Shown here piece by piece: positions 13,382 through 32,692 of a stretch of DNA of 64,000 nucleotides. The stretch's first letter is position 1. The number at the start of each line of letters is the position of its first letter. A program made the position numbers and the translations under genes. This DNA is from Microbacterium aurum. GTDB lineage: Bacteria; Actinomycetota; Actinomycetes; Actinomycetales; Microbacteriaceae. The stretch lies in contig NZ_JAFBCQ010000001.1 in NCBI RefSeq assembly GCF_016907815.1, positions 496,001 to 560,000 on the forward strand, given 5' to 3'. Below the pieces are notes generated by a model, which was given only the letters and a program-made list of their open reading frames with translations, was not told the origin of the DNA and ran no database searches.

Positions 13382-13471
13382 CATCTGGCACGCCGCCCTT
13401 CCGGGTGGCGCTTCGTCCCGGGCTGCGTGCCCGGGTTCTGTCCTGTGCCGTGTCTTGGTTTGGAGTACCCG

Positions 13472-14140
13472 ATGAAAACCCCTGTGAAGGCGACACTCGT
13501 CACCATAGCCGTAGTGGTGGTGATGGTGGTCGCCGCGTTGATCTACGTCCTTGTCAATCAGAGCCAGACCGCTCCACCTTCATCGGGGGGCGGTGACGCA
13601 TCCCCGCAGGTGGTGCGAGAGAGCTCGCATGTCCTCGACGACGGCGGGGAGGGCGCTGTCACCCTGGTCGAGTTCCTCGACTTCGAGTGCGAGGCGTGTG
13701 GCGCGTTCTTCCCGATCGTGGAGGATCTGCGGGAGCAGTTCGCGGGGGAGATCACATATGTGGTCCGCTACTTCCCGCTGCCGGGCCATTTCAACTCCAA
13801 GAACGCGGCGGTCGCAGCGGAAGCGGCCGCGCAACAGGACCGGTTCGAGGACATGTATGTCCGGCTGTTCGAGACGCAAGCGGAGTGGGGAGAGGCGCAG
13901 GAATCTCGCGCCGACCTGTTCCGCGGCTTCGCGGAGGAGATCGGTCTGGACATGGCCGCCTATGACGCCGCCGTGGCGGACCCGGCCACGACGGAGCGGG
14001 TGGAGCTGGACTTCGAGGAGGGCCAGGCGCTCGGCGTGAGCAGCACACCGACGTTCTTCCTCGACGGTGAGCTGCTCGAGCTGCAGGAGTGGGACGACCT
14101 CGAGAACGCCATCCAGGCTGCGGTGAACGGTGGCCAGTGA
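13472..14140 (+). CDS. Membrane-anchored DsbA-like thiol oxidoreductase
   Basis: 222-aa thioredoxin-fold protein. An N-terminal hydrophobic anchor (residues about 8-30) precedes a DsbA domain with active site CEAC (Cys 73 and 76), an inserted helical region, and the cis-Pro loop STPTFFLDG. It would act on disulfides of exported proteins. ATG 13472 is chosen because it begins the anchor and matches the duplicated fragment at 12770. Its stop overlaps the start of the next (interrupted) flavoprotein gene by one base. It fits the thiol-transfer theme continued by TlpA and CcdA downstream. Confidence 0.88.
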   Translation: MKTPVKATLVTIAVVVVMVVAALIYVLVNQSQTAPPSSGGGDASPQVVRESSHVLDDGGEGAVTLVEFLDFECEACGAFFPIVEDLREQFAGEITYVVRYFPLPGHFNSKNAAVAAEAAAQQDRFEDMYVRLFETQAEWGEAQESRADLFRGFAEEIGLDMAAYDAAVADPATTERVELDFEEGQALGVSSTPTFFLDGELLELQEWDDLENAIQAAVNGGQ

Positions 14141-14942
14141 TGAGGGCGGGTTTGACGCATCGGCGGGCGATCATCGTCGGCGCCGGGCAGTCCGGGCTCG
14201 CGGTTGCCGCGGCTCTGAGCGCGGAAGGGCTGCGGCCGCAGCACGAGTTCGTGGTGATCGACGCCGCCAGCACGGGGCAGCGTTCCTGGTCCTCACGGTG
14301 GCATTCGATGGAGCTTCTCAGCGACGCCCGGCATAGCGCGCTGTCTCCGCGGCGGCTGCTGGGGGACCAGCGCCGGCATCCGCGAGTGGACGAGATGGCG
14401 GACTACCTCACCTTCGTGGAAGCCGGGCTGGGCGTGGAGACGGTCTGGGGCATCCAGGCGACCGGGGTGGAGCACCGCGGGAATGGTTCGACTTTGCTGC
14501 TGTCGACGACGGCAGGGGAGGTGCAGACCCGCAACGTGATCTGCGCGACGGGCGCGGCCGCGCACCCGCGGATTCCGGAATGGGCACCCCGATTGACGGT
14601 GCCCGGGGTAGTGCTGCACAGCAGCGAGTACCTGTACCCGAAGCAGATCCCCGTCGGCGACCTCCTCATCGTGGGCGGCGGGAACAGCGGCGTGCAGCTG
14701 GCCCGCGAACTGTCCGCGTCGCACACCGTGACGCTGTCCGTGCGAACCCGGCGGCAGCATCGCCCCGCGATGAGCTATCCCGCCGCGGCGGGGGAGAGGG
14801 TGCCGCTGTTCTCGCGGGAGCGTCGCCCCGAGCCGATCTTCGGCGACAGCTATGAGCAGCTGCGCCGCGTCGGGGTCACGATCGCAGCTGCGGTGCAGGA
14901 CGCGGCCGGCGCCGGGGTGACCTTCGCCGATGGCACGCAGGC

Positions 14943-16395
14943 GGGGGTATCAGATGGTCTGTGTAAGGGGTGAGGTTCATCTCGAAGGAGAACATCATGG
15001 AGACCATGGCTATCAGTCCGGAGCGCGAGGAGCGTCGTCGCCGGCAGAAGGAGCTCGCTGACCGGCTCAAGGCGTCGGGCGCGATGGACGAGATCTTCGC
15101 TCAGATCGACGCCGGCGAGCCCCTCACGGGCGAGCACGGCCTGATCGGTGGAATGCTCAAGGCCGCGCTGGAGCGCGGGTTGGAGACGGAGCTGACCGAG
15201 CACGTCGGCTACGAGCGCGGCGACGCGGAGGCCTCGTTGCACCCGAACTCCCGCAACGGCACGAGCGCGAAGACGGTCGCGACCGAGATCGGAGACATCG
15301 AGCTGGCCGTCCCGCGGGACCGGGCTGGGACGTTCACCCCGATGCTGGTCCCGAAAGGGCAGCGCCGGCTGGACGGCCTCGATGGGATGATCATCTCGCT
15401 GTACGCGGGCGGGATGACCGTCCGCGACATCCAGCACCACCTCGCCTCGACGCTGGGCACGGACCTCTCGCACGAGACGATCTCGAAGATCACCGACCAG
15501 GTCGCAGACGAGGTCCTGGCCTGGCAGACCCGTCCGCTGGACGCGCTGTATCCGGTGATCTACCTGGACGCGATCGTGGTGAAGGTCCGCGACGGCGGCC
15601 ACGTGCGGAACAAGGCCGCGCATATCGCCGTCGGTGTCGACATGGACGGCATCAAGCACGTCCTGGGAATCTGGGTGCAAGCGGTCGAGGGTGCGAAGTT
15701 CTGGGCGGCCGTGTGCGCCGAACTCGCCAACCGCGGCGTCCGCGACGTGCTCATCGTCTGCACCGACGGGCTGACCGGGTTCCCCGAAGCGATCGAGGCC
15801 ACCTGGCCGCAAGCGACCGTGCAGACCTGCGTCGTGCACCTCATCAGGGCAGCGATGCGGTTCGTGAACTACAAGGACCGCAAAGCCGTGGCCGCAGCGC
15901 TCAAGCCGATCTACCAGGCGGTGAACGAGGACGCCGCGCTCGAAGCGCTGACCGAGTTCGCGGACTCCGACCTCGGCAAGCGCTACCCGTCGGCGGTGAA
16001 GACGTTCCAAGACGCGTGGGACCGGTTCACGCCGTTCCTCGCGTTCCCGCCCGAGCTGCGCCGGGTGATCTACACCACCAACAGCATCGAGTCGCTGAAC
16101 TACCAACTACGGAAAGTCACCAAATCCCGAGGGCATTTCCCCAACGATGCCGCCGCCGTCAAGCTGCTCTGGCTGGCGATCTGCAACATCGAGGACAAAC
16201 GAGCCCGAGACCGGCTCAAGGAACGAGGCAAGCCCTCCGAACAGCGCAGAGCCGAGCCCCGACTCATCGAGGGAGCCGTGACCACGAACTGGAAGAAGGC
16301 CCTCGAACAGCTCGCCCTCGCCTACCCCGACCGCATCGAACCCCACCTGTAATCAAACCGACACCAAGCCGCTTACACAAAAGTCTTGACACGCC
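14943..16395 (+). mobile_element. IS256-family insertion sequence (about 1.45 kb)
   Basis: Imperfect terminal repeats of about 25 bp (near GTATCAG...TGTGTAAG on the left, complement of CTTACACA...TGACAC on the right) bracket one transposase gene. A 9-bp target duplication CACGCAGGC is present at 14934-14942 and 16396-16404. The exact left end is uncertain by one base in a run of G. Transcription is in the same direction as the host operon. Confidence 0.9.
14997..16352 (+). CDS. IS256-family transposase
   Basis: 451-aa DDE transposase of the mutator group. Catalytic residues are visible in YLDAIVVKVRD, CTDGLTGFPEAI and TTNSIESLNYQLRK, with the conserved VVHLIRAAMRFVNYKDRK between the last two. 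ATG 14997 follows AAGGAG; GTG 14970 is also in frame. The gene appears intact. Confidence 0.93.
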   Translation: METMAISPEREERRRRQKELADRLKASGAMDEIFAQIDAGEPLTGEHGLIGGMLKAALERGLETELTEHVGYERGDAEASLHPNSRNGTSAKTVATEIGDIELAVPRDRAGTFTPMLVPKGQRRLDGLDGMIISLYAGGMTVRDIQHHLASTLGTDLSHETISKITDQVADEVLAWQTRPLDALYPVIYLDAIVVKVRDGGHVRNKAAHIAVGVDMDGIKHVLGIWVQAVEGAKFWAAVCAELANRGVRDVLIVCTDGLTGFPEAIEATWPQATVQTCVVHLIRAAMRFVNYKDRKAVAAALKPIYQAVNEDAALEALTEFADSDLGKRYPSAVKTFQDAWDRFTPFLAFPPELRRVIYTTNSIESLNYQLRKVTKSRGHFPNDAAAVKLLWLAICNIEDKRARDRLKERGKPSEQRRAEPRLIEGAVTTNWKKALEQLALAYPDRIEPHL

Positions 16396-16634
16396 CACGC
16401 AGGCATCCCCCCGCTCGGTGATCCTCGCCACCGGCTACACCCCTGGCGACGACTGGCTCCCGGAACCGGCCCGCGTCGACCGGCCGCGGCGCACCCTGAC
16501 CGGCCTGCCCGGGCTGTTCGTGGCGGGGATGCCGCAGTACGGCGGCCGCGGCTCCGACACCCTCGCCGGGGTCTGGAAAGACGCGACGACGATCGCCCAG
16601 CACATCATCAACCGGCCCTGAAAGGACCACCGCC

Positions 16635-17351
16635 TTGACCACCGTCACCGACCACGAACACCCGCACCGATCCGGCTCACGGAGACGCATCCTCCTCCTG
16701 TCCACTCTGACGACGCTGCTGCTGGCCGCCGGGCTCCTGTTCGCCACCGCGGCGCCCGCAGCCGCGCACGATGAGATCGTCTCCTCCTCCCCGGAAGCCG
16801 GATCCACGGTCAGCGTGGTCCCGGAGGAGATTTCGCTGACGTTCAGCGGCGAGATCCTCACCGATTTCAGCGCCGTGATCATTGAGGTGGTCGCCCCGGA
16901 CGGGCAGAACATCGCATCGGGGGATCCGGTCATCGACGGGACCACGGTCACCCAGGCGGTGACGCCTGGTCAGGCGGGCGTGCACACGGTGCGGTGGCGG
17001 GTCGTGTCCAGCGACGGGCACCCGATCAGCAACGAGTACCAGTACACCGTCGAAGCGGTCACCGTCCCCACCAGCGCCCCTACCCCCGAAGCGACCGAGG
17101 AGCAGACACCCGACCCGTCTCCCACATCTGCCGCCAATACGTCCGGAGAGGTTCACAACGGGCCATCCGGAGGTGGGGAACTCCTCCCCGTCCTTGCGGT
17201 CCTGAGTGGCGTAATCGTGCTGGGCGGCGCGCTGGTGGTCGTGCTCATGGTGGCCAGAGAGCGTCGTCGCCGCGACCGAGCAGCCGCGGCCGCGGCCGCC
17301 GCGGATGGTGGAACCGCCGACGACCAGCAACAGAAGGAGAACCCCTCATGA
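16635..17351 (+). CDS. CopC-domain copper-binding protein
   Basis: 238-aa exported protein. After a signal peptide ending AAPAAA, the mature chain starts HDEIVSSSPEAGSTV, so an N-terminal His is available as Cu(II) ligand, and the domain ends with DGHPISNEYQYTV, the second conserved His. A Pro/Thr-rich linker and one C-terminal membrane segment (about residues 180-205) anchor it. The start is TTG 16635 with AAAGGA upstream. It is the first intact gene after the IS256 insertion and overlaps the next gene by ATGA. It probably passes copper to the CopD domain encoded at 27682. Confidence 0.87.
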   Translation: MTTVTDHEHPHRSGSRRRILLLSTLTTLLLAAGLLFATAAPAAAHDEIVSSSPEAGSTVSVVPEEISLTFSGEILTDFSAVIIEVVAPDGQNIASGDPVIDGTTVTQAVTPGQAGVHTVRWRVVSSDGHPISNEYQYTVEAVTVPTSAPTPEATEEQTPDPSPTSAANTSGEVHNGPSGGGELLPVLAVLSGVIVLGGALVVVLMVARERRRRDRAAAAAAAADGGTADDQQQKENPS

Positions 17352-17623
17352 AATGTCCGGTCGACGGGACCGCCCTGCTGATCACGGAACGCTCCGGGGT
17401 CGAGATCGACTACTGCCCGCAGTGCCGGGGCGTCTGGCTGGACCGTGGCGAGCTCGACAAGATCATCGACCGCGCCGCCGACCTTGCCGGCGGCGGCCGG
17501 CAAACCAGCACCGCCCCCTATCCGCGCGAGGGCGACCACCGTTCTGACCGCGACAGGGATCATCACGGTCGCTCCGGGCGTCGGCGGAAGGAAGGGTTCC
17601 TCGGTGACCTCTTCGACTTCTGA
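17348..17623 (+). CDS. TFIIB-type zinc-ribbon protein
   Basis: 91-aa cytoplasmic protein. Residues 1-45 are a zf-TFIIB zinc ribbon: MKCPVDG, then YCPQCRGVWLDRGELDKII. This is followed by a basic, Arg/His/Asp-rich tail and the end GFLGDLFDF. Members of this family are small and lack an assigned reaction; the ribbon should bind zinc. ATG 17348 overlaps the CopC stop by 4 nt, so it is translated together with the copper genes. Confidence 0.85.
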   Translation: MKCPVDGTALLITERSGVEIDYCPQCRGVWLDRGELDKIIDRAADLAGGGRQTSTAPYPREGDHRSDRDRDHHGRSGRRRKEGFLGDLFDF

Positions 17624-17639
17624 CACCAAAAACCTCTTC

Positions 17640-17670
17640 CTGATAGCCGGTCTGATGACCGGGTTATCAG
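17640..17670 (+). terminator. Intra-operon hairpin before lspA
   Basis: CTGATAGCCGGT pairs with ACCGGGTTATCAG around a 6-nt loop, with one bulge. It lies in the only sizeable gap (77 nt) of the copC-to-DUF4307 run. No T-run follows, so it could be an attenuator or processing site instead of a true terminator. Confidence 0.35.
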
Positions 17671-17700
17671 CGGCCCTCGCGAACGCAGGAGGAGCCGCTG

Positions 17701-18234
17701 ATGGTTCGTGAGCAGACCCGGCGGTTCGCGGTCGCGTGCCTGGCCGCCGCTGTGGTGGTCCTGGTCGACCAGGCGACGAAGGCGGCCGCACTGGGAGGGT
17801 TGAGTCAGGAGGAGCGGATCCCGCTGCTGGGGGATCTGCTCGGGCTGCAGCTCGCGTTCAACCCCGGCGCGATCCTCTCCCTCGGAGCCGGGGTCACCGG
17901 GCTGCTCACTCTCCTCGGGGTCGGTGCCGTGGTGCTGCTGGTCGTCGCCGCCGCGCGGGCGCGGACCGGATGGTGGGCGATGGGGATCGGCCTGATCCTC
18001 GGGGGCGCGATCGGGAACCTGATCGACCGGCTGTTCTCCCCCCCTGGGTTCGGGGTCGGGCACGTCACCGACTTCCTCGCCTACGGGAACCTGTTCATCG
18101 GCAACCTCGCCGACGTCGCCCTCGGTGCCGGCGTCATCGTCCTCGGCCTGAGCCTGTGGACCCGACACCGCCGCTCCCGCGTCAGCGCGGACAGCGCGGC
18201 GCCTGCGACGGGCTCCGTGGTGAGCGGGTCATGA
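17701..18234 (+). CDS. lspA: Lipoprotein signal peptidase (signal peptidase II)
   Basis: 177-aa membrane aspartyl protease that removes signal peptides from prolipoproteins after lipidation. Four hydrophobic segments and the family boxes are present: DQATK, FNPGAILSL, GGAIGNLIDR and VTDFL...IGNLADVAL, with the two catalytic Asp in the last boxes. AGGAGG precedes ATG 17701. Being within a metal-island operon it is probably an extra copy next to a chromosomal one, possibly tuned to the lipoproteins made here (TlpA, BNR protein, oxidase). Confidence 0.93.
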   Translation: MVREQTRRFAVACLAAAVVVLVDQATKAAALGGLSQEERIPLLGDLLGLQLAFNPGAILSLGAGVTGLLTLLGVGAVVLLVVAAARARTGWWAMGIGLILGGAIGNLIDRLFSPPGFGVGHVTDFLAYGNLFIGNLADVALGAGVIVLGLSLWTRHRRSRVSADSAAPATGSVVSGS

Positions 18235-18566
18235 TGGCGAAGCAGCGGACCTCGTCCGTATACCAGCGCAACGCGTTCGCGCCGGGGCTGCTCGCGGCGG
18301 CGGTGTTGTTCCTCGCGCCGGTACTGATGGGCGGGGACTGGTTCACCGTTGTGCTGTTCGTCGCCGCGATCTTCGCGGTCATCGTGGGGTGGTTCGCGAT
18401 CCAGGCGCGGCAGTGGTGGTGGTTGCCTGTGTTCGTCGTGATCGCCGTGATTTGGAACCCGGTGTTCCCGTTCCCGTTCACCGGCCCGGTGTGGACTGCG
18501 GCGCAGCCGGTCGCCGCGGTCGTGTTCCTGGTCGCCGGCGCCCTGATCAAGGTCAAGCGCGCATGA
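18231..18566 (+). CDS. Small membrane protein (DUF6804-like)
   Basis: 111-aa integral membrane protein with three to four hydrophobic helices and an aromatic stretch WWWLPVFVVIAVIWNPVFPF. It resembles the DUF6804 group; no function is known. It overlaps lspA upstream and the TlpA gene downstream by 4 nt each, so it is co-translated with lipoprotein and thiol functions. Confidence 0.75.
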   Translation: MMAKQRTSSVYQRNAFAPGLLAAAVLFLAPVLMGGDWFTVVLFVAAIFAVIVGWFAIQARQWWWLPVFVVIAVIWNPVFPFPFTGPVWTAAQPVAAVVFLVAGALIKVKRA

Positions 18567-19162
18567 TCCGCCGCCGCGTCCTTGCCGCCATGACGCTGGT
18601 CGCGGCGCTGCTGCTGGCCGGGTGCACGTCCAGCGACTCGCTCGCGCAGCAGTACCGGGACGGAAGCGAGAAGGGCTACATCGCCGGTGACTTCCAGATC
18701 GTCGAGATCCCGGATGCCGACCGCGGGGAGCCGGTGGTGTTCGAGGGCGTCACCGAGACCGGGGAGACGGTGTCCAGTGACGACTACCGCGGCGGGGTGC
18801 TGGTGGTGAACTTCTGGTACGCCGCGTGCGGGCCGTGCATCGTCGAAGCCCCGATGCTCGAGGAGGTCTGGCAGGAGTATCAGGACCAGGGCGTCGCGTT
18901 CCTCGGGGTGAACACCTACGACCAGCCAGCCACCGCACTGTCGTTCGCCCGTGACAACAACGTCACCTACCCGAGCGTGATCGACGTGAACGACGGACGG
19001 GTCAAGCTCGCGTTCGCGCAGGTCACTCCGATCCAGGCCACCCCCACCACCTTGGTCATCGACCAGGAGGGGCGGGTCGCGGCGCGGATCATCGGGCAGT
19101 TGGCCAGCGCGTCGATCCTGTCCACCCTGGTCGCCGACACCCTCGCCGAGGACACCTCATGA
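18563..19162 (+). CDS. TlpA/ResA-like thioredoxin lipoprotein
   Basis: 199-aa lipoprotein with lipobox LLAGC (Cys about 22). The mature thioredoxin fold has NFWYAACGPCIVEAPML, with the CGPC active site near residue 94, and the cis-Pro loop ATPTTLVIDQEG. Such proteins receive electrons from CcdA and reduce apocytochrome or copper-site cysteines outside the membrane. Coupled by ATGA overlaps to both neighbours; ccdA follows directly, its expected redox partner. Confidence 0.92.
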   Translation: MIRRRVLAAMTLVAALLLAGCTSSDSLAQQYRDGSEKGYIAGDFQIVEIPDADRGEPVVFEGVTETGETVSSDDYRGGVLVVNFWYAACGPCIVEAPMLEEVWQEYQDQGVAFLGVNTYDQPATALSFARDNNVTYPSVIDVNDGRVKLAFAQVTPIQATPTTLVIDQEGRVAARIIGQLASASILSTLVADTLAEDTS

Positions 19163-19906
19163 ATCCGGGAGCGGTGATCGTCGACGGCGCCCTGTGGGTC
19201 GCGATCCCGGTCGCGATCCTCGCCGGGCTGGTGTCGTTCGTGTCCCCGTGCGTGCTGCCGCTGGTGCCTGGCTACCTCGGCTACCTCGGCAGCACCACCA
19301 CGACGACCGCGGCCCCCACGCTGGACGGGGGGCGCACGGTGACGGCGGAGCGCGCGCGGCTGCTGCTGGGCGTGACATTGTTCATCGCCGGGTTCACCGT
19401 GGTGTTCGTCGCCGTCACGATCCTCGGCGGCACCTTCGGGTACCTGCTGCTGCAATACGCCAATGTGCTCACTCGCGTCTTCGGGGTCGTCATCATCGCC
19501 CTCGGCCTGGTGTTCCTCGGCTTCTTCGGCATTGCCCAGCGCACCCTCCGCCCTCGCGCCCAGGGTAGGACCGGGCTGATCGGGGCGCCGCTTCTCGGGT
19601 TCGCGCTCGGCGTCGGCTGGACCCCCTGTATCGGCCCGACGCTCGCAGCGATCATCTCTATGTCGTGGAACCTCGGTGACCCCGCCCGCGCGGGCCTGCT
19701 CGGGCTCGCGTACTCGCTGGGCCTGGGCATCCCGTTCCTGATCCTCGCGGCCGGATGGGGGTGGGCGTCCCGATCGGTGACGTTCCTGCGCCGCCACATC
19801 CGCGCCCTGAACATCATCGGCGGGGCCATGCTCATCGCCCTCGGCCTGCTGATGGTGACCGGGCTGTGGACGGCACTGATGTCGCAGCTGCAACAGGTGG
19901 TGATCA

Positions 19907-19926
<20 letters not shown>
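19159..19926 (+). CDS. ccdA: CcdA-type thiol/electron transporter
   Basis: 255-aa membrane protein with six hydrophobic segments. The two redox Cys motifs are FVSPCVLPLVPGYLGYL near the N-terminus and GWTPCIGPTLAAI in the middle, the classical pair that carries reducing power across the membrane. It overlaps tlpA by 4 nt and resB by 20 nt. It supplies reductant to the TlpA lipoprotein for cytochrome c or copper-site maturation. Confidence 0.94.
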
Positions 19927-21591
<1,665 letters not shown>

Positions 21592-21595
<4 letters not shown>

Positions 21596-22533
21596 CGACC
21601 GTGTGGATCCCGGACGCCCCGCCGACCCTCGGCGGGTTCCTCACCCCGGCCCCGCTTCCGGCTCCGGTGCTACCGCTCCTCGCGGGACTCCTCGCGGTCG
21701 CCTACCTGGCCGGTGCGATCCGGATGTGGGTCCGCGGCCGCGGCTGGCCGGTGTGGCGGACGGTCAGCTTCCTGCTCGGCTGCGTCGCCCTCGCCGCGGT
21801 CACCGGCCTGGCGGTGGAGAACTTCGGGTACGCCCTGTTCTCGGTGTTCATGTTCCAGCAGGTCACCCTGATGATGGCGATCCCGCCGCTGCTGGTCCTC
21901 GGCTCTCCCGGCACCCTGCTGCTGCGCGCCACCCCGCACCACGGCCCAGGTCTCCTGGTGCTCCGCGCCGCGCACGCCGGGCTACGCAGTCGCACCGCAC
22001 GGTGGCTGCTCAGCCCGTGGCTGGCGGTGCCGCTATACCTGGCCGCGTTTTACGGTCTGTACCTGGCGAACTTCGCCGATCCGATCCTGTCCACCGTCAC
22101 CGGCCATACCCTCCTCGAGGTCGGGTTCCTGGTCGCCGGGATGCTGTTCACCATCCCGATCCTGTCGTCGGACCCGCTGCCGGTGCGGATGAGCCACGGC
22201 GGCCGCGCCCTGGACGTGTTCGCCGAGGCCGCCCTGCACGCCTTCTTCGGCGTCTTCCTGATGATGGCCACCACTACCCTCATCGACGGGTTCGCCGGCC
22301 CGACGAGCGCGCTGGGCATCGACCCGATCGAAGACCAGCGCCTCGCCGGCGGGCTGGCCTGGTCCTACGGCGAGGCCCCCACCTTGCTGATGCTCATCTA
22401 CGTCATGCACCGCTGGTTCCGCGACGACACCGCCCAAGCGGTCGCCGCCGACCGTCGCGCCGACGCACACGGCGACCCTGAGCTCGACGCGTACAACGAC
22501 TACCTCACCCGACTCCACCAGAAAGACACCTGA
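21592..22533 (+). CDS. CtaG-like cytochrome oxidase assembly factor
   Basis: 313-aa membrane protein of the caa3-type CtaG family, with about seven hydrophobic segments, conserved His/Met sites in the membrane (MFQQVTLMMAIPPLLVLG, LHAFFGVFLMM) and a C-terminal block GIDPIEDQRLAGGLAWSYGE. It is thought to help deliver copper to heme-copper oxidases. GTG 21592 overlaps the resB stop by 4 nt. It is a clear paralog of the C-terminal half of the CopD-CtaG fusion at 27682; both end with a related acidic/basic tail (ELDAYNDYLTRL versus ELEAYNARLTEL). Confidence 0.88.
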
Positions 22534-22536
22534 CCG

Positions 22537-24156
22537 ATGCGCACGCCTTTGCCGACACCCGCCCCGGCCGCCGCGCCGGAGCAGGAGACGCCGCGCCGCA
22601 CCGTGGCGGCATGGTCGCTGCCGGTGTGGGCGGCGGTGCTGGCATCCGCGGCCGCCGGCCTGCTGCTGGATCTCGCCTCCGCACCGGTGGGGTGGTGGCC
22701 GTTGACGTTCGTGAGTGTCACGGTCGCCCTGGTGGCCCTGATCGGCCGCAGCATCGGCGGGGCGCTGCTGGTCGGCACTGTGTTCGGCGCCGTGTTCTAC
22801 ACGACCCATCTGGTGTGGGTGGGGGAGTTCCTCGGCCCGGTGCCGTGGCTTGCCCTCGCCGGGCTGGAAGCGGTCCTGTTCGGCGCGGGCGCGGTGCCGA
22901 TCGCGCTCGCCTACCGGTGGACCGCCCGCTATCCGGCCCGCGGCCTCGTGCAGCTGCTCGCGGTACCGCCGCTGATCGGGGTTCTGTGGACGGCCCGTGA
23001 GGTGGTGATGGGTGCGTGGCCGTACTCCGGGTTCCCGTGGGCGCGCCTCGGGATGACCCAGGTGGGCGGCCCGCTCGCGGAGGCCGTGTCGTGGACGAGC
23101 GTGACCGGCCTGTCCCTGCTGATCGTCATTCTGTGCGCCTCTGTGGTGCAGTGGATCCGCGCCGGCGGCATCCGCTTCATGCTCGGGTTGCACCCTGCTG
23201 TGAGCGTCGCCGCTCTCCTGGTGATAGCGCCGCAGTTCCCCACCGCGCCGGCCGGGGAGTTCCGCGTGGGATGGGTGCAGGGCAACGGCCCCACCGGGTA
23301 CTTCGACGACAAGGTGCCCGGCGACGTCCTGGCCGCGCAGACCGCCGCCACGGTGCCGCTGTACGGGCAGCCGATGGATCTGCTGGCCTGGCCGGAGGGC
23401 GGCGTCGACGCCGACCCGCTCAGTGATCCCGCCGCCGCCGAGGCGTTGGACCGGGTCGTGCGCTCGGCCGGGGCGCCGTTGCTGATGAACGCCGCCACCA
23501 CCCGCGGCGACGATGTCTTCAACACGTCCCTGCTGTGGACCGCGGATCCCACGGGCCGGCAGTGGCACGACAAGGTCAACCCGGTCCCGTTCGGCGAGTA
23601 CGTGCCGGACCGGTGGTTCTACGAGCTGATCGTCCCCGACCTGGTGGGCTTGATCCAACGCGAATACACCCCCGGCAGCAACCCGCCGCTCGTGCAGGTC
23701 GGCGACGTCGGGGTGGGGTTGGCGATCTGCTTCGACGTGATCTACGACGCCGTGATCTGGGACGGTGCCCGCGCCGGCGCAGAGGTGTTCGTGTTCCAGA
23801 CCAACAACGCCGACTTCCGCGGCACCGACGAGAACCTGCAGCAGCTCGCGTTCGCCCGGATGCGCGCCATCGAAACCGGCCGCGCGGTCGTCAACGTCTC
23901 CACGGTGGGCACCAGCCAGGTCATCACCCCGGACGGCACCACCGTCGACAGCATCGGCGTCGACACCGTTGACGCGTCGATCACCACCGTCCCGCTGCGC
24001 ACCGGACTCACCCCGGCGGTGATCCTCGGTCCCTGGCTCACCGCTCTCATCGTCCTCGCTGCCGCCGGCGCTCTCACCGCGGCGGGGTTCTCCCACCGTG
24101 CCCGCACGCGTGCGGCCGCCGCAGATCGTTCGACTGATCCGGGGAGGCACCCATGA
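22537..24156 (+). CDS. lnt: Apolipoprotein N-acyltransferase
   Basis: 539-aa enzyme adding the third acyl chain to lipoproteins. Multiple N-terminal membrane segments precede a nitrilase-fold domain with the triad Glu (LLAWPEGGVDADP), Lys (WHDKVNPVPFGEYVPD) and Cys (LAICFDVIYDAVIW). A final membrane segment follows. Like lspA it is normally a housekeeping gene, so this may be an island-borne second copy. It starts 3 nt after ctaG and overlaps the next gene by 4 nt. Confidence 0.93.
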   Translation: MRTPLPTPAPAAAPEQETPRRTVAAWSLPVWAAVLASAAAGLLLDLASAPVGWWPLTFVSVTVALVALIGRSIGGALLVGTVFGAVFYTTHLVWVGEFLGPVPWLALAGLEAVLFGAGAVPIALAYRWTARYPARGLVQLLAVPPLIGVLWTAREVVMGAWPYSGFPWARLGMTQVGGPLAEAVSWTSVTGLSLLIVILCASVVQWIRAGGIRFMLGLHPAVSVAALLVIAPQFPTAPAGEFRVGWVQGNGPTGYFDDKVPGDVLAAQTAATVPLYGQPMDLLAWPEGGVDADPLSDPAAAEALDRVVRSAGAPLLMNAATTRGDDVFNTSLLWTADPTGRQWHDKVNPVPFGEYVPDRWFYELIVPDLVGLIQREYTPGSNPPLVQVGDVGVGLAICFDVIYDAVIWDGARAGAEVFVFQTNNADFRGTDENLQQLAFARMRAIETGRAVVNVSTVGTSQVITPDGTTVDSIGVDTVDASITTVPLRTGLTPAVILGPWLTALIVLAAAGALTAAGFSHRARTRAAAADRSTDPGRHP

Positions 24157-25558
24157 ACACGCCACGGATGAGGCCTGCCGGAGGTCGGCTGGCCTGGTCG
24201 CTGCGAACGCTGGCGACGGGCAGCGATCTCACCCTTCCTGGTGACCTGACGGCGGAGGAGTGTGGGTGCGCGCCCACGCCCGCGGAGAGCCGCGCATTCC
24301 GGGTCGGGGTGAGCCGGCGCACTCTGCTGACGGCGGGAACATTGAGCGCGGCAGCCGTCCTGGTCGCCGGCCCGCTGTTGCCGGCAGCGTTCGCGGCGAC
24401 CTATCCGTCCTGGGAGGACGTGCAGGCCGCGAAAGCGAACGAGGCCACCAAAGCTGCCGAGGTGCAGCGGATCCAGGGCCTCATCCAAAGCCTGACCGGC
24501 GAGGTGGCGCGCACCCGCACCGCCGCCGAGCAGGCCGCCGGCGCGTTCTACACCGCCCAGCAGGAGTACTTCGACGCATCCATCCGCGCCGACACGTTGC
24601 AGTCCCAAGCCGACCTGGAAGCGCAGAACGCGACCGACGCGGCGAACAAGGCCGGCCGCATCGCCGCGCAGCTGTACCGCGACGGGGGCGACACCACCTC
24701 CCTCGAGCTGTTCCTCTCCGGGTCGCCGCGACCGCGGACGATCTCCTGTCCCGGCTGGGCGTGATGGACAAGCTGCTGGAACGCAACCAGGCCGTCTACG
24801 CTGCGGCGCTCACCGCCCGCGATGCCGCGCAGAGCCTGACCGATCAGGCGGTGGTGGCCCGGGATGAGCGCGACCGGCTGCAGCAGGTCGCCGAGCAGAA
24901 GATGCTCGAGTCGCAGCAGGCCGCCGATGCTGCGCAGGCCGCGCTGGACGCGCAGACCCTCCACCTCGGCGAGCTGCAGGCCCAGCTCGCCGCCCTCGAG
25001 GACACCACCGCGAAGACCATCGCCGACTATCAGGCCGGGGTGGAGGCTGCCCGCATCGCCGAGGAGCAGCGGCGAGCGGCGGAGCGCGCCGAAGCGGAAC
25101 GGCTCGCCGCCTCGGGAGGTGCTGGTGGGGGTGTGGTCAGCTCCGGGTGGGCACGGCCGACCTCCGGGCACCGCACCTCGGGGTTCGGGCCGCGCAGCTC
25201 CCAGTGTGGCAACGGGTACTGCTCGACCAGCTACCACTACGGCGTCGACCTCAGCGGCGGATGCGGCGCGGGGATCTACGCCGCCGCGGCCGGCACCGTC
25301 GTCTACGCCGGGTACAACGGCGGCTACGGCAACTACATCAAGATCGACCACGGCGGCGGGATCGGCACCGGATACGCCCACATCCGCCCCGGCGGCTTCT
25401 ACGTCGGATACGGCCAACGCGTGAACGCCGGCGACCTGATCGGCAGCGAAGGCAACACCGGCAACGCGTTCGGCTGCAACCTGCACTTCGAGGCCTACGT
25501 GAACGGCTCCCCGGTCAACCCCATCCCCTTCCTCGCCGACCGCGGCGTGTCCATCTGA
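24153..25558 (+). pseudogene. M23 peptidase with coiled coil, frameshifted
   Basis: A Tat-like signal (SRRTLLTAGTLSAAAVLVAG) and a long Ala/Gln/Glu-rich coiled coil occupy the first frame, which ends at 24764. The second frame continues the coiled coil from about 24723 and ends with an M23/LytM domain containing YHYGVDLSGGCG and CNLHFEAYVNGS. Downstream sequence is in phase if one base is added near 24723-24725 (LELFLSGS then AATADDLLSRLG). It would be an envelope endopeptidase acting on peptidoglycan. The shift may be a genuine mutation or a sequencing error. Confidence 0.8.
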
Positions 25559-25579
25559 TCCGAAACGAACCAGGACATC

Positions 25580-26458
25580 ATGACTGACCAGACCACCCCA
25601 CCCGGCGGCGGCGACCAGCCCCAGACGCCCCCCACGCGCCGCAGCCTCCGCCGCGCCGCAACCCCGCCAGTCACCAGCATCACCACCCGCCCCCCACGGC
25701 GCCCGCCCGCAGAAACGTCCGCCCGTGGTCGGGTAATCGCGCTGCGCCCAGTGCGCTCCCTGGCGGTCCTGACGGTGGTCACCGGCCTGATCGCCACCTT
25801 CGCCCTCCCCGCGTATGCCGCCTGGCAGCCGGCGGACCTCGAGATCCCGACACTGCAGCAAGTCGCGTCCGAGGACGCGCAATCCTTGATCGTCGCCTCC
25901 GACGCGACTGGGACGCAGCTCACACGGGAGAGCTACTCGGCCACCACCCAGGCGGAGATCGACCAGAAGAAGGCGGCAGAAGCAGCCGCAGAACGTGCCC
26001 GCGCCTCCGCACAAGTCGCCTCGGTGCCCTTCGACTACAGCATCGTGCCCCAAGGCAGTGGAGCCGTGCGGTGGCCGGTGGGCGGTCCGTTCACCGTGAC
26101 CGACCGCTTCGGTGATCGAGGCGGCGCGCATATGGGCACCGACATGGTCGCTGCCGGCGGAACCCCCGTCTACGCGTCCGTCGACGGCGTCGTGCGGATC
26201 TCGCAGGACAGCTACGGCGGATACGGGGTGACCGTGGTGGTGGAGTCCGTGCTGAACGGGCAACAGGTGAGCACGGTGTACCCGCACATGCAGACCGGAA
26301 GCCGGCAGGTCGCCGCCGGGCAGACCGTCACGGCCGGGCAGCTGGTCGGACTCGTCGGCAGCACGGGACGCTCCACCGCGAACCATCTGCACTTCGAGGT
26401 CTACCTCGACGGAACCGCCGTGGACTCGCTGGCCTGGCTGGAAGCGAACGCGGGCTGA
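25580..26458 (+). CDS. M23 family metallopeptidase
   Basis: 292-aa peptidoglycan endopeptidase. A basic cytoplasmic tail and one membrane segment (VVTGLIATFALPAYAA) precede a Lys/Ala-rich helix and a C-terminal LytM domain with zinc ligands in HMGTDM and NHLHFEVYLDG. It follows the frameshifted M23 gene after 21 nt, so the operon was built with two wall hydrolases. It may make room in the wall for membrane assemblies; that role is inferred. Confidence 0.88.
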   Translation: MTDQTTPPGGGDQPQTPPTRRSLRRAATPPVTSITTRPPRRPPAETSARGRVIALRPVRSLAVLTVVTGLIATFALPAYAAWQPADLEIPTLQQVASEDAQSLIVASDATGTQLTRESYSATTQAEIDQKKAAEAAAERARASAQVASVPFDYSIVPQGSGAVRWPVGGPFTVTDRFGDRGGAHMGTDMVAAGGTPVYASVDGVVRISQDSYGGYGVTVVVESVLNGQQVSTVYPHMQTGSRQVAAGQTVTAGQLVGLVGSTGRSTANHLHFEVYLDGTAVDSLAWLEANAG

Positions 26459-26535
26459 CCGATGTGCACGGATCTACCGCGCCACCCCGCTCGCGGGCAC
26501 CCCCTGACCGCAACGACGAAGAGGACGACCCTGCC

Positions 26536-27552
26536 ATGACCGGAACCGACGCGCTCTCCCTCGACGGCATCTCACTGCTGCTGGTGTGGACGGCGATCGC
26601 CACCTACCTGCTCGCGTTCATCGCGTACACCATCGACCTGGCCGGGCGCTCCGTCCCCGCCAGCGTCCCGCAGCGGGAGCCGGTCCTGGCCGGCGCTACC
26701 GCACGGGCGGGCCAGCAGACGGACAACGCCCAGAGTGGGTCGGTGGACAGTGTTCGCACGCCGCCCGCGCAGCGTCAACGGCTGCTGTGGGCGCGGATCG
26801 GGACGTCGCTGACGGTCCTCGCGTTCCTGTTCCACCTGGCCGGCACCATCCTGCGCGGCATCGCCGCGGAGCGGGTGCCGTGGGCGAACATGTACGAGTT
26901 CGCGCTGACCGGCACGGTCTTGATCGTGGCCGTCTACCTGCTGGTGCTGCGCCGCTACGACCTCCGCTTCCTCGGTGCGTTCCTGATCGGCATGGTGGTG
27001 CTGCTGCTGGGTGGCGCGACGGTCTCGTTCTACGTCGAGGTCGTTCCGCTGATGGATCCGCTCAAGAGCGTGTGGCTGGTCATCCACGTCTTCGTCGCGT
27101 CCCTGGCCACCGCCCTGTTCGCGATCGCCTGCGGCATCTCCATCACCCAGCTCCTGCAGGCCCGCCGGGAGCGCCGCACCCGAGCATCCTCGGACACTGC
27201 CCGCGCCGACGGTCTTGGGTTTCTGCGCACTCTGCCCGCCGCCGACGTGCTCGAGTCCCTCGCGTACCGGTTCGCGATCGTGGGGTTCGTGTTCTGGACG
27301 TTCACCCTGATCGCCGGCGCGATCTGGGCCAACGACTCCTGGGGTCGCTACTGGGGCTTCGATGTCAAGGAGGTGTGGACGTTCGTGATCTGGGTGCTCT
27401 ACGCCGGCTACATCCACGCCCGCGCGACCCGCGGCTGGCGCGGCACCCGCTCCGCCTGGCTGTCCATCATCGGGTTCGTCGCGGTGCTGTTCAACTTCAC
27501 GATCGTGAACATGTTCTTCCAGGGCCTCCACTCCTACTCCGGGCTCACATGA
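26536..27552 (+). CDS. ccsB: CcsB/CcsA-type heme handling protein (cytochrome c synthetase subunit, system II)
   Basis: 338-aa membrane protein with about eight hydrophobic segments and the Trp-rich heme-binding segment NDSWGRYWGFDVKEVWTF, plus conserved His in transmembrane positions (FHLAGTILRG, IHVFVASL). It partners ResB at 19907 in moving heme across the membrane and attaching it to CXXCH. ATG 26536 is preferred since GAAGAGGA precedes it and the membrane domain follows; an upstream in-frame ATG at 26464 lacks support. Confidence 0.92.
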   Translation: MTGTDALSLDGISLLLVWTAIATYLLAFIAYTIDLAGRSVPASVPQREPVLAGATARAGQQTDNAQSGSVDSVRTPPAQRQRLLWARIGTSLTVLAFLFHLAGTILRGIAAERVPWANMYEFALTGTVLIVAVYLLVLRRYDLRFLGAFLIGMVVLLLGGATVSFYVEVVPLMDPLKSVWLVIHVFVASLATALFAIACGISITQLLQARRERRTRASSDTARADGLGFLRTLPAADVLESLAYRFAIVGFVFWTFTLIAGAIWANDSWGRYWGFDVKEVWTFVIWVLYAGYIHARATRGWRGTRSAWLSIIGFVAVLFNFTIVNMFFQGLHSYSGLT

Positions 27553-27598
27553 CCCCGCACCCCTGCCCCGCCCTCTTGCCCGAGCCGAAAGCACGCAC

Positions 27599-27685
27599 AT
27601 GACCCCGATACTCTCGATTCCCGCCACCACGGGTGCGGATGCCACTGAACGCGGACAGCGGTCACTCCGACCGCGACAGGAATGA
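27599..27685 (+). CDS. Possible 28-aa leader peptide before copD
   Basis: ATG 27599 opens 28 codons (MTPILSIPATTGADATERGQ and so on) whose TGA overlaps the ATG of the CopD fusion by two bases (ATGA). A GAAAG precedes it. It fits a translational-coupling leader in the 129-nt gap, but nothing else supports expression. Confidence 0.25.
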   Translation: MTPILSIPATTGADATERGQRSLRPRQE

Positions 27686-29661
27686 CTCCTCGCGTCTTGC
27701 GGGTCGCAGGGCCTGCGATCCTCGGCGGGGTCGCACTCATCGCCTTGGTCGGGGCGTTGTGGTTCGGTGGGGGTGCTGCGCAGATCCCACTCGGCGACGC
27801 CGGCCCTGTTGTGCGCTGGGGGCTTCCGGTCACGAAACTGGTCGTGAATCTCGCCGCCGCGGGCATGGTCGGTGTGCTCGTGACCGCCTTGTTCACGCTG
27901 CGGGCCGGTGAGCGCGAGTTCGACGTCGCCCTCGATACCGCGTCGATCTCTGCAGCCCTGTTCACCGTGGCCGCGGGCGCGACCGGGTTCCTCACGCTTC
28001 TCAGCGTGTTCAACCCGGCCATCGACGCAGGCCCCCAGTTCGGTGCCCAGCTCGGCCGGTTCCTCGTCGAGCTCGAGGTCGGCAGGACATGGCTGATCAC
28101 GACGGTCGCCGGCGCCGCCCTCACCGTCCTGACATTCGCCGTGCGGTCCTGGGTCGGGACGCTTCTGGTCGCCCTGGTGGCGGTGGCCTCGCTCGTGCCG
28201 ATGGGCACGCAGGGGCACTCCGGCGATGACGCCTTCCACCACGAGGCGATGATGGCGCTCATCCTGCACATCATCGGCGCCGCGGTGTGGCTCGGCGGGC
28301 TCCTGCTGCTCATCGCCGTCCGTCCAGCCCTCGACCGTCGCCGCATCCCCGATCTCGTCGCCCGCTACTCGAGCATCGCTCTGGCCGCGTTCGTGCTCGT
28401 CGCCGTGTCCGGCACGGTGCGCGCCGCCATCGGCCTGCAGGAGTGGTCCGATCTGCTCTCGCCCTATGGCGCGATCTTGGGCATCAAGGTCGTCGCGCTC
28501 GTCGGCCTCGGCCTCTTCGGGGCGTGGTACCGCACCCGCCTGATCGGCAGGATGCGCAGCTCCGACGCGGCATCCCGCCCTTTCTGGATGCTCATCGCGT
28601 TCGAGCTGGCACTGATGGGTGTGGCCAGCGGCGCCGCCGCAGCGCTGGCCCGCACTCCGCCACCGAACCCGGCCCCGCTTCCCGAGATCCCCTCGCCGGC
28701 AGAACGCCTCACCGGTGCCCCGCTGCCCCCGGAGCTCACGATCGAACGGTGGGTCACCGCGTGGAACGTGGACATGTTGTGGGCGGTGCTCGCCGGGTTC
28801 GCGATCTTCTTCTATCTCGCCGGGGTGTGGCGGCTGCGCCGGCGCGGCGACGCGTGGCCTGTGTATCGCACGATCATGTGGGTCGCCGGCATGGTGCTGC
28901 TGGTCTGGGTCACCGGCGGCGTCGTCAACGTCTACCAGGACTACCTGTTCAGCATGCACATGGTGGGGCACATGCTGCTCACGATGGCGATCCCGGTGCT
29001 GCTGGTCGCCGGCGCCCCGGTGACCCTCGCCGCCCGGGCGATCCGCAAACGCGACGACGGCACCCGCGGCGGGCGGGAGTGGATCCTGTGGGCGGTGCAT
29101 TCGCCCGTCGCCCGCATCCTGACGAACCCGTTCGTCGCGGCCGCCCTGTTCATCGGCTCACTGTGGGTGTTCTATTACACCGACCTGTTCCGCTGGTCGC
29201 TGTACGACCACCTCGGCCACCAGTGGATGATCGCGCACTTCCTCATCACCGGCTACCTGTTCGCGCTCTCCCTGATCGGCATCGACCCGGTGCCGTGGCG
29301 GCTTCCCTACGCCGGCAGGCTGCTGCTGCTCATCGGTGTGATGGCGATGCACGCGTTCTTCGGCATCGCCATCATGATGCAGTCGGGGCTGATGGTCGCC
29401 GACTGGTTCGGGTCGATGGGTCGCACCTGGGGTGTCACACCGCTCGAGGATCAGTACACCGGCGGCGGTATCGCGTGGTCGATCGGTGAGATCCCCACCC
29501 TGATCCTCGCGATCACGGTCGCGATTCAGTGGAGTCGCAGCGACGACCGCGAGACCAAGCGGCGAGACCGGCACGCCGACCGCACCGGCGAAGCCGAGCT
29601 CGAGGCCTACAACGCACGCCTCACCGAGCTCGCCGACCGCGATGCTCGCAGCCGCAGATAG
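27682..29661 (+). CDS. CopD-CtaG fusion membrane protein
   Basis: 659-aa polytopic protein. Residues about 1-320 match the copper resistance D (CopD) family, with a His-containing loop GHSGDDAFHHEAMMALILH. Residues about 350-640 form a CtaG domain with MHMVGHMLLTMAIPVLLVAGA, MAMHAFFGIAIMM and GVTPLEDQYTGGGIAWSIGE. The first half would import copper received from CopC, the second would help load oxidases. GACAGG precedes ATG 27682. Fusion of the two families occurs in actinobacteria and suggests copper is handed on directly. Confidence 0.92.
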   Translation: MTPRVLRVAGPAILGGVALIALVGALWFGGGAAQIPLGDAGPVVRWGLPVTKLVVNLAAAGMVGVLVTALFTLRAGEREFDVALDTASISAALFTVAAGATGFLTLLSVFNPAIDAGPQFGAQLGRFLVELEVGRTWLITTVAGAALTVLTFAVRSWVGTLLVALVAVASLVPMGTQGHSGDDAFHHEAMMALILHIIGAAVWLGGLLLLIAVRPALDRRRIPDLVARYSSIALAAFVLVAVSGTVRAAIGLQEWSDLLSPYGAILGIKVVALVGLGLFGAWYRTRLIGRMRSSDAASRPFWMLIAFELALMGVASGAAAALARTPPPNPAPLPEIPSPAERLTGAPLPPELTIERWVTAWNVDMLWAVLAGFAIFFYLAGVWRLRRRGDAWPVYRTIMWVAGMVLLVWVTGGVVNVYQDYLFSMHMVGHMLLTMAIPVLLVAGAPVTLAARAIRKRDDGTRGGREWILWAVHSPVARILTNPFVAAALFIGSLWVFYYTDLFRWSLYDHLGHQWMIAHFLITGYLFALSLIGIDPVPWRLPYAGRLLLLIGVMAMHAFFGIAIMMQSGLMVADWFGSMGRTWGVTPLEDQYTGGGIAWSIGEIPTLILAITVAIQWSRSDDRETKRRDRHADRTGEAELEAYNARLTELADRDARSRR

Positions 29662-29671
29662 GGCGCACTAC

Positions 29672-30067
29672 GTGACGACGAAAGAGGAGCTCGCCGACCG
29701 CTACGGTCGGGGACCGCGGCCCATCCGCCGCCGCGTGTTCTGGGTCACCGTCGCGACGGCGGCAATCCTGTCTGTCGCCGGGCTTTCGTGGCTGACTGTC
29801 TCGAACTCGCTCGACGACGTCGGATTCGACGAGACCGGATACGAGCTGGTCGATGCGCGCACCGTGACCGTATCCTTCCAAGCCACGCCACCCGCTGGGA
29901 CGTCGTTCGCATGCGCGGTGCAGGCATTGGATGAGGACTTCGGCATCGTCGGTTGGCGGGTCATCGAGTACCCCGCGTCCGAGGAGATCACACGAGCACT
30001 CGTGGAGACCATCCCGACCGTCGCGCAGGCAACGACCGGCACCGTGCAATCCTGCTGGGCCACATAG
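29672..30067 (+). CDS. DUF4307 membrane-anchored protein
   Basis: 131-aa protein of the actinobacterial DUF4307 family: a short cytoplasmic N-terminus with ELADRYGRGPR, one membrane segment (WVTVATAAILSVAGLSWLTV) and an external beta-rich domain with two Cys (SFACAVQ and VQSCWAT). Function unknown. GTG 29672 matches the family start and has AGGG eight bases upstream; ATG 29642 overlaps the preceding stop and is less likely. It is the last gene of the run and converges on the ATPase at 30107. Confidence 0.75.
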   Translation: MTTKEELADRYGRGPRPIRRRVFWVTVATAAILSVAGLSWLTVSNSLDDVGFDETGYELVDARTVTVSFQATPPAGTSFACAVQALDEDFGIVGWRVIEYPASEEITRALVETIPTVAQATTGTVQSCWAT

Positions 30068-30106
30068 CCGCGCAAGGGAGGCCGTCGCCTGCGCCGGCTG
30101 AGTCTC

Positions 30107-32143: not shown

Positions 32144-32152
32144 GCGACCAGG

Positions 32153-32176
32153 ATACATCACAAGATCATGATATAT
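32153..32176. promoter_or_regulatory. AT-rich divergent operator for the ArsR/P1B-4 pair
   Basis: Half-sites ATACATCA (32153-32160) and TGATATAT (32169-32176) form an inverted repeat with one mismatch around 8 bases. The whole 32150-32195 stretch is AT-rich in GC-rich surroundings, as expected for back-to-back promoters. An ArsR-family dimer is the likely ligand. Confidence 0.55.
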
Positions 32177-32212
32177 TGTAGTTGTGAATGATTATCGTGG
32201 TCGGAGGGCACA

Positions 32213-32554
32213 ATGGTGAGCATGGCCGGTACTGAGACGCGTCGGGAAGCAGGCACCCTGTCCGTAGCGGATGCTGAGCGTCTCGCCGAGATCATGCAGG
32301 CACTGGCGTCACCTGTGCGGCTGCGCATTCTGAGCGCGCTGAGTGTTCAGCCGAGCACCGTGACCGACCTCAGCGAACAGCTGCACATCGGACAGACGAC
32401 CACATCGAACCATTTGCGGCTGCTGCGGCATCTGAGCCTGGTCCTTGGCACGCGCGACGGCCGGCACATCCACTACTCGCTCTTCGACGACCACGTCTCC
32501 GAACTGCTCGAGGAGGCCATCGGGCACCTCGAGCATCTGCCCGGCGGAGGATGA
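32213..32554 (+). CDS. CzrA/SmtB-like ArsR-family Zn/Co sensor
   Basis: 113-aa winged-helix repressor with ALASPVRLRILSALSV, recognition helix GQTTTSNHLRLLRHL and wing TRDGRHIHYSL. It has no Cys; instead helix 5 carries D92, H94, H105 and H108 in the spacing D-x-H-x10-H-x2-H, the exact alpha-5 zinc/cobalt site of CzrA. It should derepress the divergent P1B-4 ATPase when Zn or Co is in excess. A GGAGGG precedes ATG 32213 closely; ATG 32222 is an alternative. Confidence 0.87.
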   Translation: MVSMAGTETRREAGTLSVADAERLAEIMQALASPVRLRILSALSVQPSTVTDLSEQLHIGQTTTSNHLRLLRHLSLVLGTRDGRHIHYSLFDDHVSELLEEAIGHLEHLPGGG

Positions 32555-32692
32555 CGCCTGCCGGAGCTCCCCGATTGACGAGAGTATTCCCGTTCACGTC
32601 GGGGGGCGCTGCTGCGGCCGGGGAGAGCGCGTCGCTGCCGGTTCGGACACGCTGCATGGTGTGTAGCCGATCGCCGCGACGGCCATGAGCTC

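Follow-up and report, generated by a model that had tools for sequence, protein, structure and literature searches.

Why does a metal-resistance island carry a compact set of genes for the maturation of cytochromes and oxidases? The question is raised by a 14-gene operon of Microbacterium aurum (NCBI RefSeq assembly GCF_016907815.1), located in a 64,000-nucleotide stretch that we call the window (positions 496001-560000 of the single-contig 3.41-Mb genome, NZ_JAFBCQ010000001.1), whose coordinates are used below. The operon runs from CopC to DUF4307 on the + strand (16635-30067), all genes in the same direction, inside a metal-resistance island. The reading that we judge probable, on the basis of sequence comparison, is that this cassette is a mobile assembly kit for the cytochrome bcc-aa3 oxidase of the host itself. 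It is supported by the gene set, its mobility, the existence of extra copies in the genome, catalytic motifs that are mostly intact, client proteins encoded on the chromosome, and a recurrent association with metal genes. The genes of the cassette are the following:

16635..17351, + strand, CopC-family copper-binding protein (PF04234, E 1.2e-22)
17348..17623, + strand, small zinc-ribbon protein of the zf-TFIIB type (PF13453; start as in the plasmid annotation)
17701..18234, + strand, LspA, signal peptidase II of an island-type lineage according to the tree (PF01252; motifs GNLIDR and VTDF retained)
18231..18566, + strand, small membrane protein, DUF6804 in the plasmid annotation, without a Pfam match
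18563..19162, + strand, TlpA/ResA-like thiol reductase with lipobox LLLAGC and CGPC (PF00578/PF08534)
19159..19926, + strand, CcdA thiol-electron carrier with two PC motifs (PF02683)
19907..21595, + strand, ResB of system II cytochrome c maturation (PF05140, E 1.4e-132)
21592..22533, + strand, standalone Caa3_CtaG (PF09678)
22537..24156, + strand, Lnt, apolipoprotein N-acyltransferase, motifs ICFD and WPEG retained (PF20154 and PF00795)
24153..25558, + strand, M23 peptidase gene, frameshifted by comparison with the plasmid copy
25580..26458, + strand, second M23 peptidase (PF01551)
26536..27552, + strand, CcsB (ResC/CcsA), motif WGRYWGFD matching the chromosomal copy (PF01578)
27682..29661, + strand, CopD-CtaG fusion, CtiP-like (PF05425 and PF09678)
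29672..30067, + strand, DUF4307 protein (PF14155; start as in the plasmid gene)

Family identity was established by Pfam for 13 of the 14 genes and by plasmid annotation only for the small membrane protein, and start sites were borrowed from near-identical plasmid genes. The gene families, order and coordinates proposed in the initial annotation all proved correct. Its description of the junctions as mostly 4-nt overlaps applies to about half of them: six of the 13 are exact 4-nt overlaps, and the rest comprise one 20-nt overlap and gaps of 3, 10, 21, 77, 77 and 129 nt. A frameshift interrupts the first M23 gene: its 5' part stops at 24764 and the remainder continues in another frame to 25558, and the gene measures 1406 nt compared with 1407 nt in the intact plasmid copy. 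Three functional groups are recognizable: ResB and CcsB with the tryptophan-rich heme motif, accompanied by CcdA and TlpA with CXXC, as in system II; LspA and Lnt with their catalytic motifs, for lipoprotein maturation; and CopC, CopD-CtaG and CtaG, assembly factors of the bcc-aa3 oxidase. Lgt gave no match within the window, so it is not part of the cassette.

The whole 13.4-kb operon is 99.3% identical to a stretch of plasmid NZ_CP038257 of Microbacterium sediminis YLB-01, which carries all 14 genes in identical order. Matches to this plasmid cover window positions 8001-9403, 10329-14942 and 16396-32792 at 98.0-99.9%, the gaps being two insertion elements. The plasmid region differs in lacking an IS256-type insertion in a flavoprotein gene, in having an intact M23 gene, and in its location, since the M. 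aurum copy lies on the main chromosome contig. The near-identical plasmid copy, together with metal efflux and regulator genes, identifies the surroundings as a mobile metal-resistance island, and similar mosaics occur on other plasmids and in other genera, so that the earlier description of the cassette as portable is borne out.

To what extent is the gene set shared? Ten standalone CtaG proteins were aligned and used to scan one genome per species. Of the 266 relatives found, we kept the 80 best loci and examined them with profiles built from the proteins of the window, the plasmid and the host's own chromosome. Among these 80 loci we found LspA in 64, Lnt in 58, TlpA in 62, CcdA in 59, ResB in 49, CcsB in 43, CopD-CtaG in 49, M23 in 55, DsbA in 66 and CopC in 66. 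Genes for lipoprotein maturation and for cytochrome c maturation occurred together in 63 loci, and a metal efflux or regulator gene was present in 68. The genera represented include Microbacterium, Microcella, Leucobacter, Arthrobacter, Micrococcus and Agreia, as well as Leifsonia, Agromyces, Salinibacterium, Citricoccus and Pseudokineococcus. As a control, the M. aurum genome was sampled in 20-kb stretches at 20 regularly spaced positions, and these gave no profile match except one to Surf1. Both maturation groups were also present in 15 of 16 plasmid loci, a non-random set made of 7 of the 11 plasmid-match records and 9 loci chosen by eye for breadth; Lgt was found in 3 of these 16 and in 1 of the 80 genome loci. 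Three records, titled Acidobacteria, Planococcus and Vibrio cholerae (L048, L049, L105), contain cassette DNA that resembles that of Microbacterium or Arthrobacter, and they appear to be contaminated or wrongly labelled.

Catalytic motifs, searched with loosely drawn patterns, are retained in most island copies: CXXC in 74 of 74 TlpA proteins, the first PC motif in 70 and the second in 61 of 72 CcdA proteins, the Cys motif in 63 and the Glu motif in 57 of 65 Lnt proteins, the two LspA motifs in 78 and 81 of 91, and the CcsB motif in 53 of 56. The enzymes of the kit are therefore probably active, and this retention speaks against their being inactive decoys.

The cassette adds a second set of genes that the chromosome already carries. 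The genome has two copies each of LspA, Lnt and CcsB, two full copies and a fragment of ResB, and three Caa3_CtaG matches, of which the two besides the standalone cassette gene are CopD fusions. Cassette and chromosomal proteins share 42% identity for LspA, 58% for Lnt, 61% for ResB, 65% for CcsB and CcdA, and 70% for CopD-CtaG, and the chromosomal counterparts are spread over four distant loci. Thus the second copies of lspA, lnt, resB and ccsB, for which the initial annotation had proposed a check, all exist, and the cassette genes are not the sole copies. In a sample of 79 Micrococcales genomes, 6 had a second LspA and 6 a second Lnt. A second ResB coincided with a second Lnt in 5 genomes (Fisher p 1.6e-6) and with a second LspA in 4 (Fisher p 1.4e-4), p values that are too small because the sampled genomes are related. 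In this scoring, two genomes with two ResB pieces (G035) or two Lnt pieces (G016) were not counted as having second copies, and two others (G043, G059) were counted as second-Lnt carriers despite one of their two Lnt matches being partial. In five genomes (G000, G001, G048, G051, G059) a ResB gene is separated from an Lnt gene on the same contig by no more than about 14 kb.

If the cassette assembles respiratory proteins, where are these encoded? A diheme QcrC with a pair of CXXCH sites is encoded on the chromosome at 2.64 Mb (PF13442 being the only family searched), as is, also outside the window, one CtaC (COX2) with the lipobox ALAAC at the end of its signal sequence. The cassette contains no CXXCH protein, and only 2 of 1788 called open reading frames (ORFs) of the cassette loci contain CXXCH, neither cytochrome-like by eye. 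Because the ORF caller misses some genes, the chromosomal QcrC among them, six-frame translations were searched with QcrC by phmmer; no relative was found in the cassette loci and only the chromosomal gene matched, so that an overlooked cytochrome c near the cassette was rejected. The initial observation that the operon lacks a cytochrome c is consequently true of the cassette, and the clients are chromosomal. Furthermore, ResB and COX2 were both present in 59 of the 79 genomes and both absent in 15; the 5 discordant genomes are assemblies of 270-550 contigs, three of them less than 90% complete. This joint presence and absence ties system II in Micrococcales to the oxidase chain. TlpA, CcdA, ResB and CcsB stood together in all 30 ResB loci fetched from the same search.

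It had been suggested that the cassette might serve an alternative oxidase. For this genome the suggestion is not supported: no CtaD or CtaC profile match was found in the window, and the genome has one COX2. A related explanation, that the alternative oxidase was encoded elsewhere on a donor plasmid or island and that its assembly set has been orphaned here, draws on the occurrence of CtaD and CtaE in similar islands of Rhodococcus, Gordonia, Kocuria and Mycolicibacterium. CtaD was seen on the plasmids pREL1 of Rhodococcus and pKB1 of Gordonia, and on one of Kocuria. Some Mycobacteriales and Kocuria islands bear CtaD or CtaE, a Citricoccus plasmid carries Surf1, and a Mycolicibacterium rufum plasmid carries CtaD with oxidase subunit III; tblastn with CtaD matched 919 plasmid records, with Rhodococcus, Gordonia and Mycolicibacterium among the best 60 of the 919. 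Nevertheless, none of the 80 loci gave a CtaD or CtaC profile match, and only 3 actinobacterial records were among the best 30 of 452 plasmid records matching CtaC, which together with the single COX2 makes this explanation very improbable. The oxidase parts of islands elsewhere (CtaD, CtaE, Surf1) also count in favour of the assembly-kit reading.

Did such islands inherit the set from a single source? In the ResB tree (66 rows after near-copy removal from 89) the island copies require 8 label changes, 7 of them forced by well-supported branches, and forcing them into one clade costs 709 log units (approximately unbiased test, p-AU 3.55e-6). The main Microbacterium island clade is sister to the Microbacterium chromosomal copies, an Arthrobacter plasmid copy lies beside genome copies of another family (f6), and a Kineococcus plasmid copy pairs with a copy of yet another (f15). 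The chromosomal label was checked by neighbours within 1.5 kb for 30 ResB loci. The Lnt tree (71 of 95 rows) requires 5 changes, all 5 forced. For LspA (88 of 120 rows) there were 2 changes, 1 forced, and a single split between chromosomal and island copies was not rejected (p-AU 0.386), although in the unconstrained tree the chromosomal LspA of one distant family (L195) stands beside the island copies. Transfer directions were not polarised in these trees. One ancient mobile kit that spread intact was thus rejected for ResB and for Lnt by the one-clade tests; LspA fits a single dedicated island lineage, while ResB and Lnt joined islands more than once.

These trees bear on another explanation, in which the set serves the island's own secreted metal-handling lipoproteins: LspA and Lnt would mature them, TlpA and CcdA would maintain their cysteines, CopC and CopD would load copper, and the cytochrome genes would have come along with TlpA and CcdA. 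Lipoboxes are indeed present on the island multicopper oxidase, DUF305 protein, BNR-repeat protein and TlpA, and the lipobox pattern was found in 40 of 75 TlpA, 12 of 29 DUF305 and 2 of 4 multicopper oxidase frames, so the initially proposed role in making copper-loaded lipoproteins is possible in part. On an Enterococcus faecium plasmid, pA (L258), lgt adjoins genes for a heavy-metal-associated protein and a metal ATPase, a single context that also agrees with this explanation. However, it needs neither ResB, CcsB nor CtaG, and these recur, ResB having entered islands repeatedly; we regard it as unlikely. In a separate search, an island Lgt matched 244 Enterococcus plasmid records, and these matches with the pA context indicate that lipoprotein-maturation genes on metal plasmids may extend beyond actinobacteria.

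As an oxidase assembly kit, the cassette would work as follows. CopC and CopD-CtaG would pass copper on, and CtaG would assist its insertion into the oxidase; thiols would be held reduced by TlpA and CcdA; ResB and CcsB would attach heme to the CXXCH sites of the chromosomal QcrC; and LspA and Lnt, with Lgt elsewhere, would finish lipoprotein clients such as CtaC, TlpA, the island multicopper oxidase and DUF305 proteins. Its retention in metal islands may be explained if these thiol- and copper-dependent steps beyond the membrane are vulnerable to copper, cadmium and similar metals, and extra or more tolerant copies would then sustain respiration under metal. The efflux pumps of the island may also withdraw copper that oxidase assembly needs, a loss for which CopC and CopD-CtaG would make up. 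That similar sets are found in the metal islands of related bacteria suggests that toxic metals hit oxidase assembly and that spare parts have been acquired repeatedly; damage by copper or cadmium to assembly may be what selects the kit.

Published work, cited here from excerpts of the papers, supplies parts of this scheme. The caa3 biogenesis genes of Bacillus subtilis include Caa3_CtaG, CcdA, ResA, ResB, ResC, LspA and Lgt (PMC9145763), a list nearly equal to that of the cassette, which we count in favour of an oxidase assembly kit. In Corynebacterium glutamicum, CtiP (CopD-CtaG) and CopC serve the supercomplex (PMC9145763) and, according to a title cited in the same paper, belong to the copper-deprivation response. 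The known sets therefore share CopC, CopD-CtaG, CtaG, CcdA, ResA, ResB, ResC and LspA with the kit and list Lgt as well; they are chromosomal (PMC9145763), whereas here a single transferable unit inside a metal-resistance island combines them, Lnt being present as well and Lgt absent. The cassette likewise resembles the system II (Ccs/Res) operon of Actinomycetota in its TlpA-CcdA-ResB and CcsB genes and their motifs, and differs in being an extra copy on mobile DNA, with CtaG, Lnt and two M23 genes between ResB and CcsB. CtaC bears diacylglycerol (PMC8795186). In E. coli, lipoprotein maturation is blocked by copper and the copper-tolerance locus cutE harbours lnt (PMC6538781, PMC6593411), which makes a target-sparing role plausible, and in a cadA mutant cadmium lowers the levels of cytochrome c and oxidase (PMC7283390).

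Several observations weigh against the assembly-kit reading. One of the two maturation groups is absent from 17 of the 80 loci, and the stored stretch of 12 contains no metal gene, partly because of contig ends. The loci were selected via CtaG and are mostly from Microbacterium, and the DNA control stretches come from one genome. The kit is sporadic: only 6 of the 61 ResB-bearing genomes in the 79-genome sample have a second ResB, and the two other genomes of the same genus both lack one. The reading offers no role for the two M23 peptidases, the zinc ribbon, DUF6804 or DUF4307. Not all Lnt rows labelled chromosomal are housekeeping, since two (L207, L227) lie near a second ResB; with both removed the tree still requires 5 changes and a single clade costs 502 log units (p-AU 1e-65). 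Another Lnt, L217, is an island copy with kit neighbours that had been removed as a near-copy of L117. Finally, cox transcripts of Cupriavidus metallidurans drop under metal shock (PMC11647585), so that lower oxidase production may be another way for a cell to cope.

The order of the core genes is also fluid, with 59 distinct orders among the 80 loci, some of them cut forms, since only 54 loci are at least 20 kb long. With regard to the initial proposal that the gene order be sought outside close relatives, the set recurs there and the order varies, and a conserved order was rejected as a general statement; we take neither of the two initially proposed refutations to hold. This fluidity is a point for an explanation by dosage or hitch-hiking, in which assorted envelope genes accumulate in plasmid-borne metal islands, LspA alone is selected, as in cad-lspA pairs, and the others are neutral cargo. 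The frameshifted M23 gene, the split flavoprotein gene and the remnants of another cassette upstream point the same way, as does the known occurrence of LspA beside metal genes (PMC11580412, PMC12060670, PMC4510254, PMC11647585, PMC12467314), to which a cadC-lspB link in Listeria may be added (PMC7840573). Nonetheless, the same functional set is present across several families, catalytic motifs are mostly retained, and second copies of ResB and Lnt co-occur; we consider neutral accumulation less likely still than service to the island's own lipoproteins.

The closest precedents differ from the cassette in content. The CadC/PbrC2 loci of C. metallidurans and the lspA-czcD-cueR genes of ISPpu12 resemble it in that the gene for signal peptidase II, on mobile DNA or at metal loci, adjoins genes for metal efflux or its regulation, and the excerpts mention no cytochrome or oxidase assembly genes beside LspA (PMC11580412, PMC11647585, PMC12060670). 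A 27-kb genomic island of Brevibacterium combines czcD, cmtR, lspA, resA and copB; in the part of the source available it is a table entry without comment, and ResB, CcsB, Lnt and CtaG are not named (PMC12467314). No description of the combined kit was found in the open-licence literature searched. Metal-resistance islands and metal-linked LspA are known, and an oxidase assembly module within such an island would be new.

How far does the unit extend? Upstream and downstream of the 14 genes lie the following features:

10608..12713, + strand, metal ATPase of the SPC type, probable first gene of the ancestral operon (Pfam; gene context in near-identical loci)
13427..14140, + strand, DsbA-like thiol oxidoreductase (PF13462/PF01323)
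14089..16621, + strand, flavoprotein-like gene split by an IS256/Mutator-type element (comparison with the plasmid copy)
30107..32161, - strand, SPC-motif metal P-type ATPase, convergent with the operon (PF00122/PF00702)
32213..32554, + strand, ArsR/SmtB-family metal regulator, divergent from the ATPase (PF01022)

The transcription unit probably starts upstream of CopC. On the plasmid, CopC has four co-oriented reading frames ahead of it (metal P-type ATPase, small ORF, DsbA-like protein, flavoprotein); the matching ATPase, DsbA and flavoprotein genes are also present in other near-identical loci. In the window the flavoprotein gene, annotated intact on the plasmid as 'NAD(P)-binding domain-containing protein', is interrupted by an element whose transposase gene occupies 14970-16352 and which is flanked by a 9-bp repeat; the plasmid lacks the insertion, and a search for terminal inverted repeats of the element led nowhere, as did scans for inverted repeats that could serve as an ArsR operator. 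In five near-identical loci (L038-L041, L099) an ArsR gene ends less than 280 nt before the SPC ATPase frame, and this end corresponds to window 8977-9327 at 100% identity over the 45 stored residues. Broken IS5-type transposase frames (9393-10287) separate the two genes in the window; the spacing in the five loci is too tight for such an element. In islands of other families (L013, L015-L018) a DsbA-like thioredoxin-domain protein and a vitamin K epoxide reductase (VKOR) homologue recur, possibly as a disulfide-forming pair.

Further left, and partly beyond the window, the island encodes a multicopper oxidase and a DUF305 protein, as well as two ATPases that have heavy-metal-associated domains. 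The multicopper oxidase (6048-7574) has a twin-arginine signal and a lipobox and, by eye, is likely a lipoprotein exported by the twin-arginine pathway. A P-type ATPase at 3431-6055 overlaps a phosphoketolase gene by 4 nt and reads TCPDALG, at the equivalent of which metal ATPases usually carry CPC, SPC or TPC; no CXXC was seen in its heavy-metal-associated stretch. The xylulose-5-phosphate/fructose-6-phosphate phosphoketolase itself (828-3434) lies in the metal island between a BNR-repeat lipoprotein and this CPD-type ATPase. About 2-4 kb left of the window, remnants of another cassette occupy genome positions 491877-493955 on the - strand (a ResB fragment and Lgt-like and M23-like frames), the Lgt-like frame lying at 492.2-493.5 kb. 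Genes look ordinary at about 476 kb, by eye, and beyond window position 36 kb.

What, then, would such a kit mean for these bacteria? We put forward tentatively, as a proposal somewhat more doubtful than even, that the metal islands of Actinomycetota have converged on survival kits for maturing the respiratory chain on its outer face, in which families would have separately recruited their own resB and lnt onto one island-specific LspA lineage, since copper, cadmium and related metals would kill largely by way of cysteine- and copper-dependent bcc-aa3 assembly, as one of their main targets. If this is true, the entire extracytoplasmic toolkit for cysteines, DsbA/VKOR, CcdA/TlpA, ResB/CcsB and Lgt/LspA/Lnt, would form a class of metal resistance that spares the target and does not act by efflux. 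Metal resistance is mostly described as efflux, sequestration and oxidation. A transferable spare set for the maturation of oxidase, cytochrome c and lipoproteins would add target replacement, and would name a vulnerable step of respiration in actinobacteria. It also makes it testable which maturation enzymes outside the membrane copper or cadmium poisons, and whether the island copies tolerate more. The repeated recruitment of ResB and Lnt provides several natural replicates.

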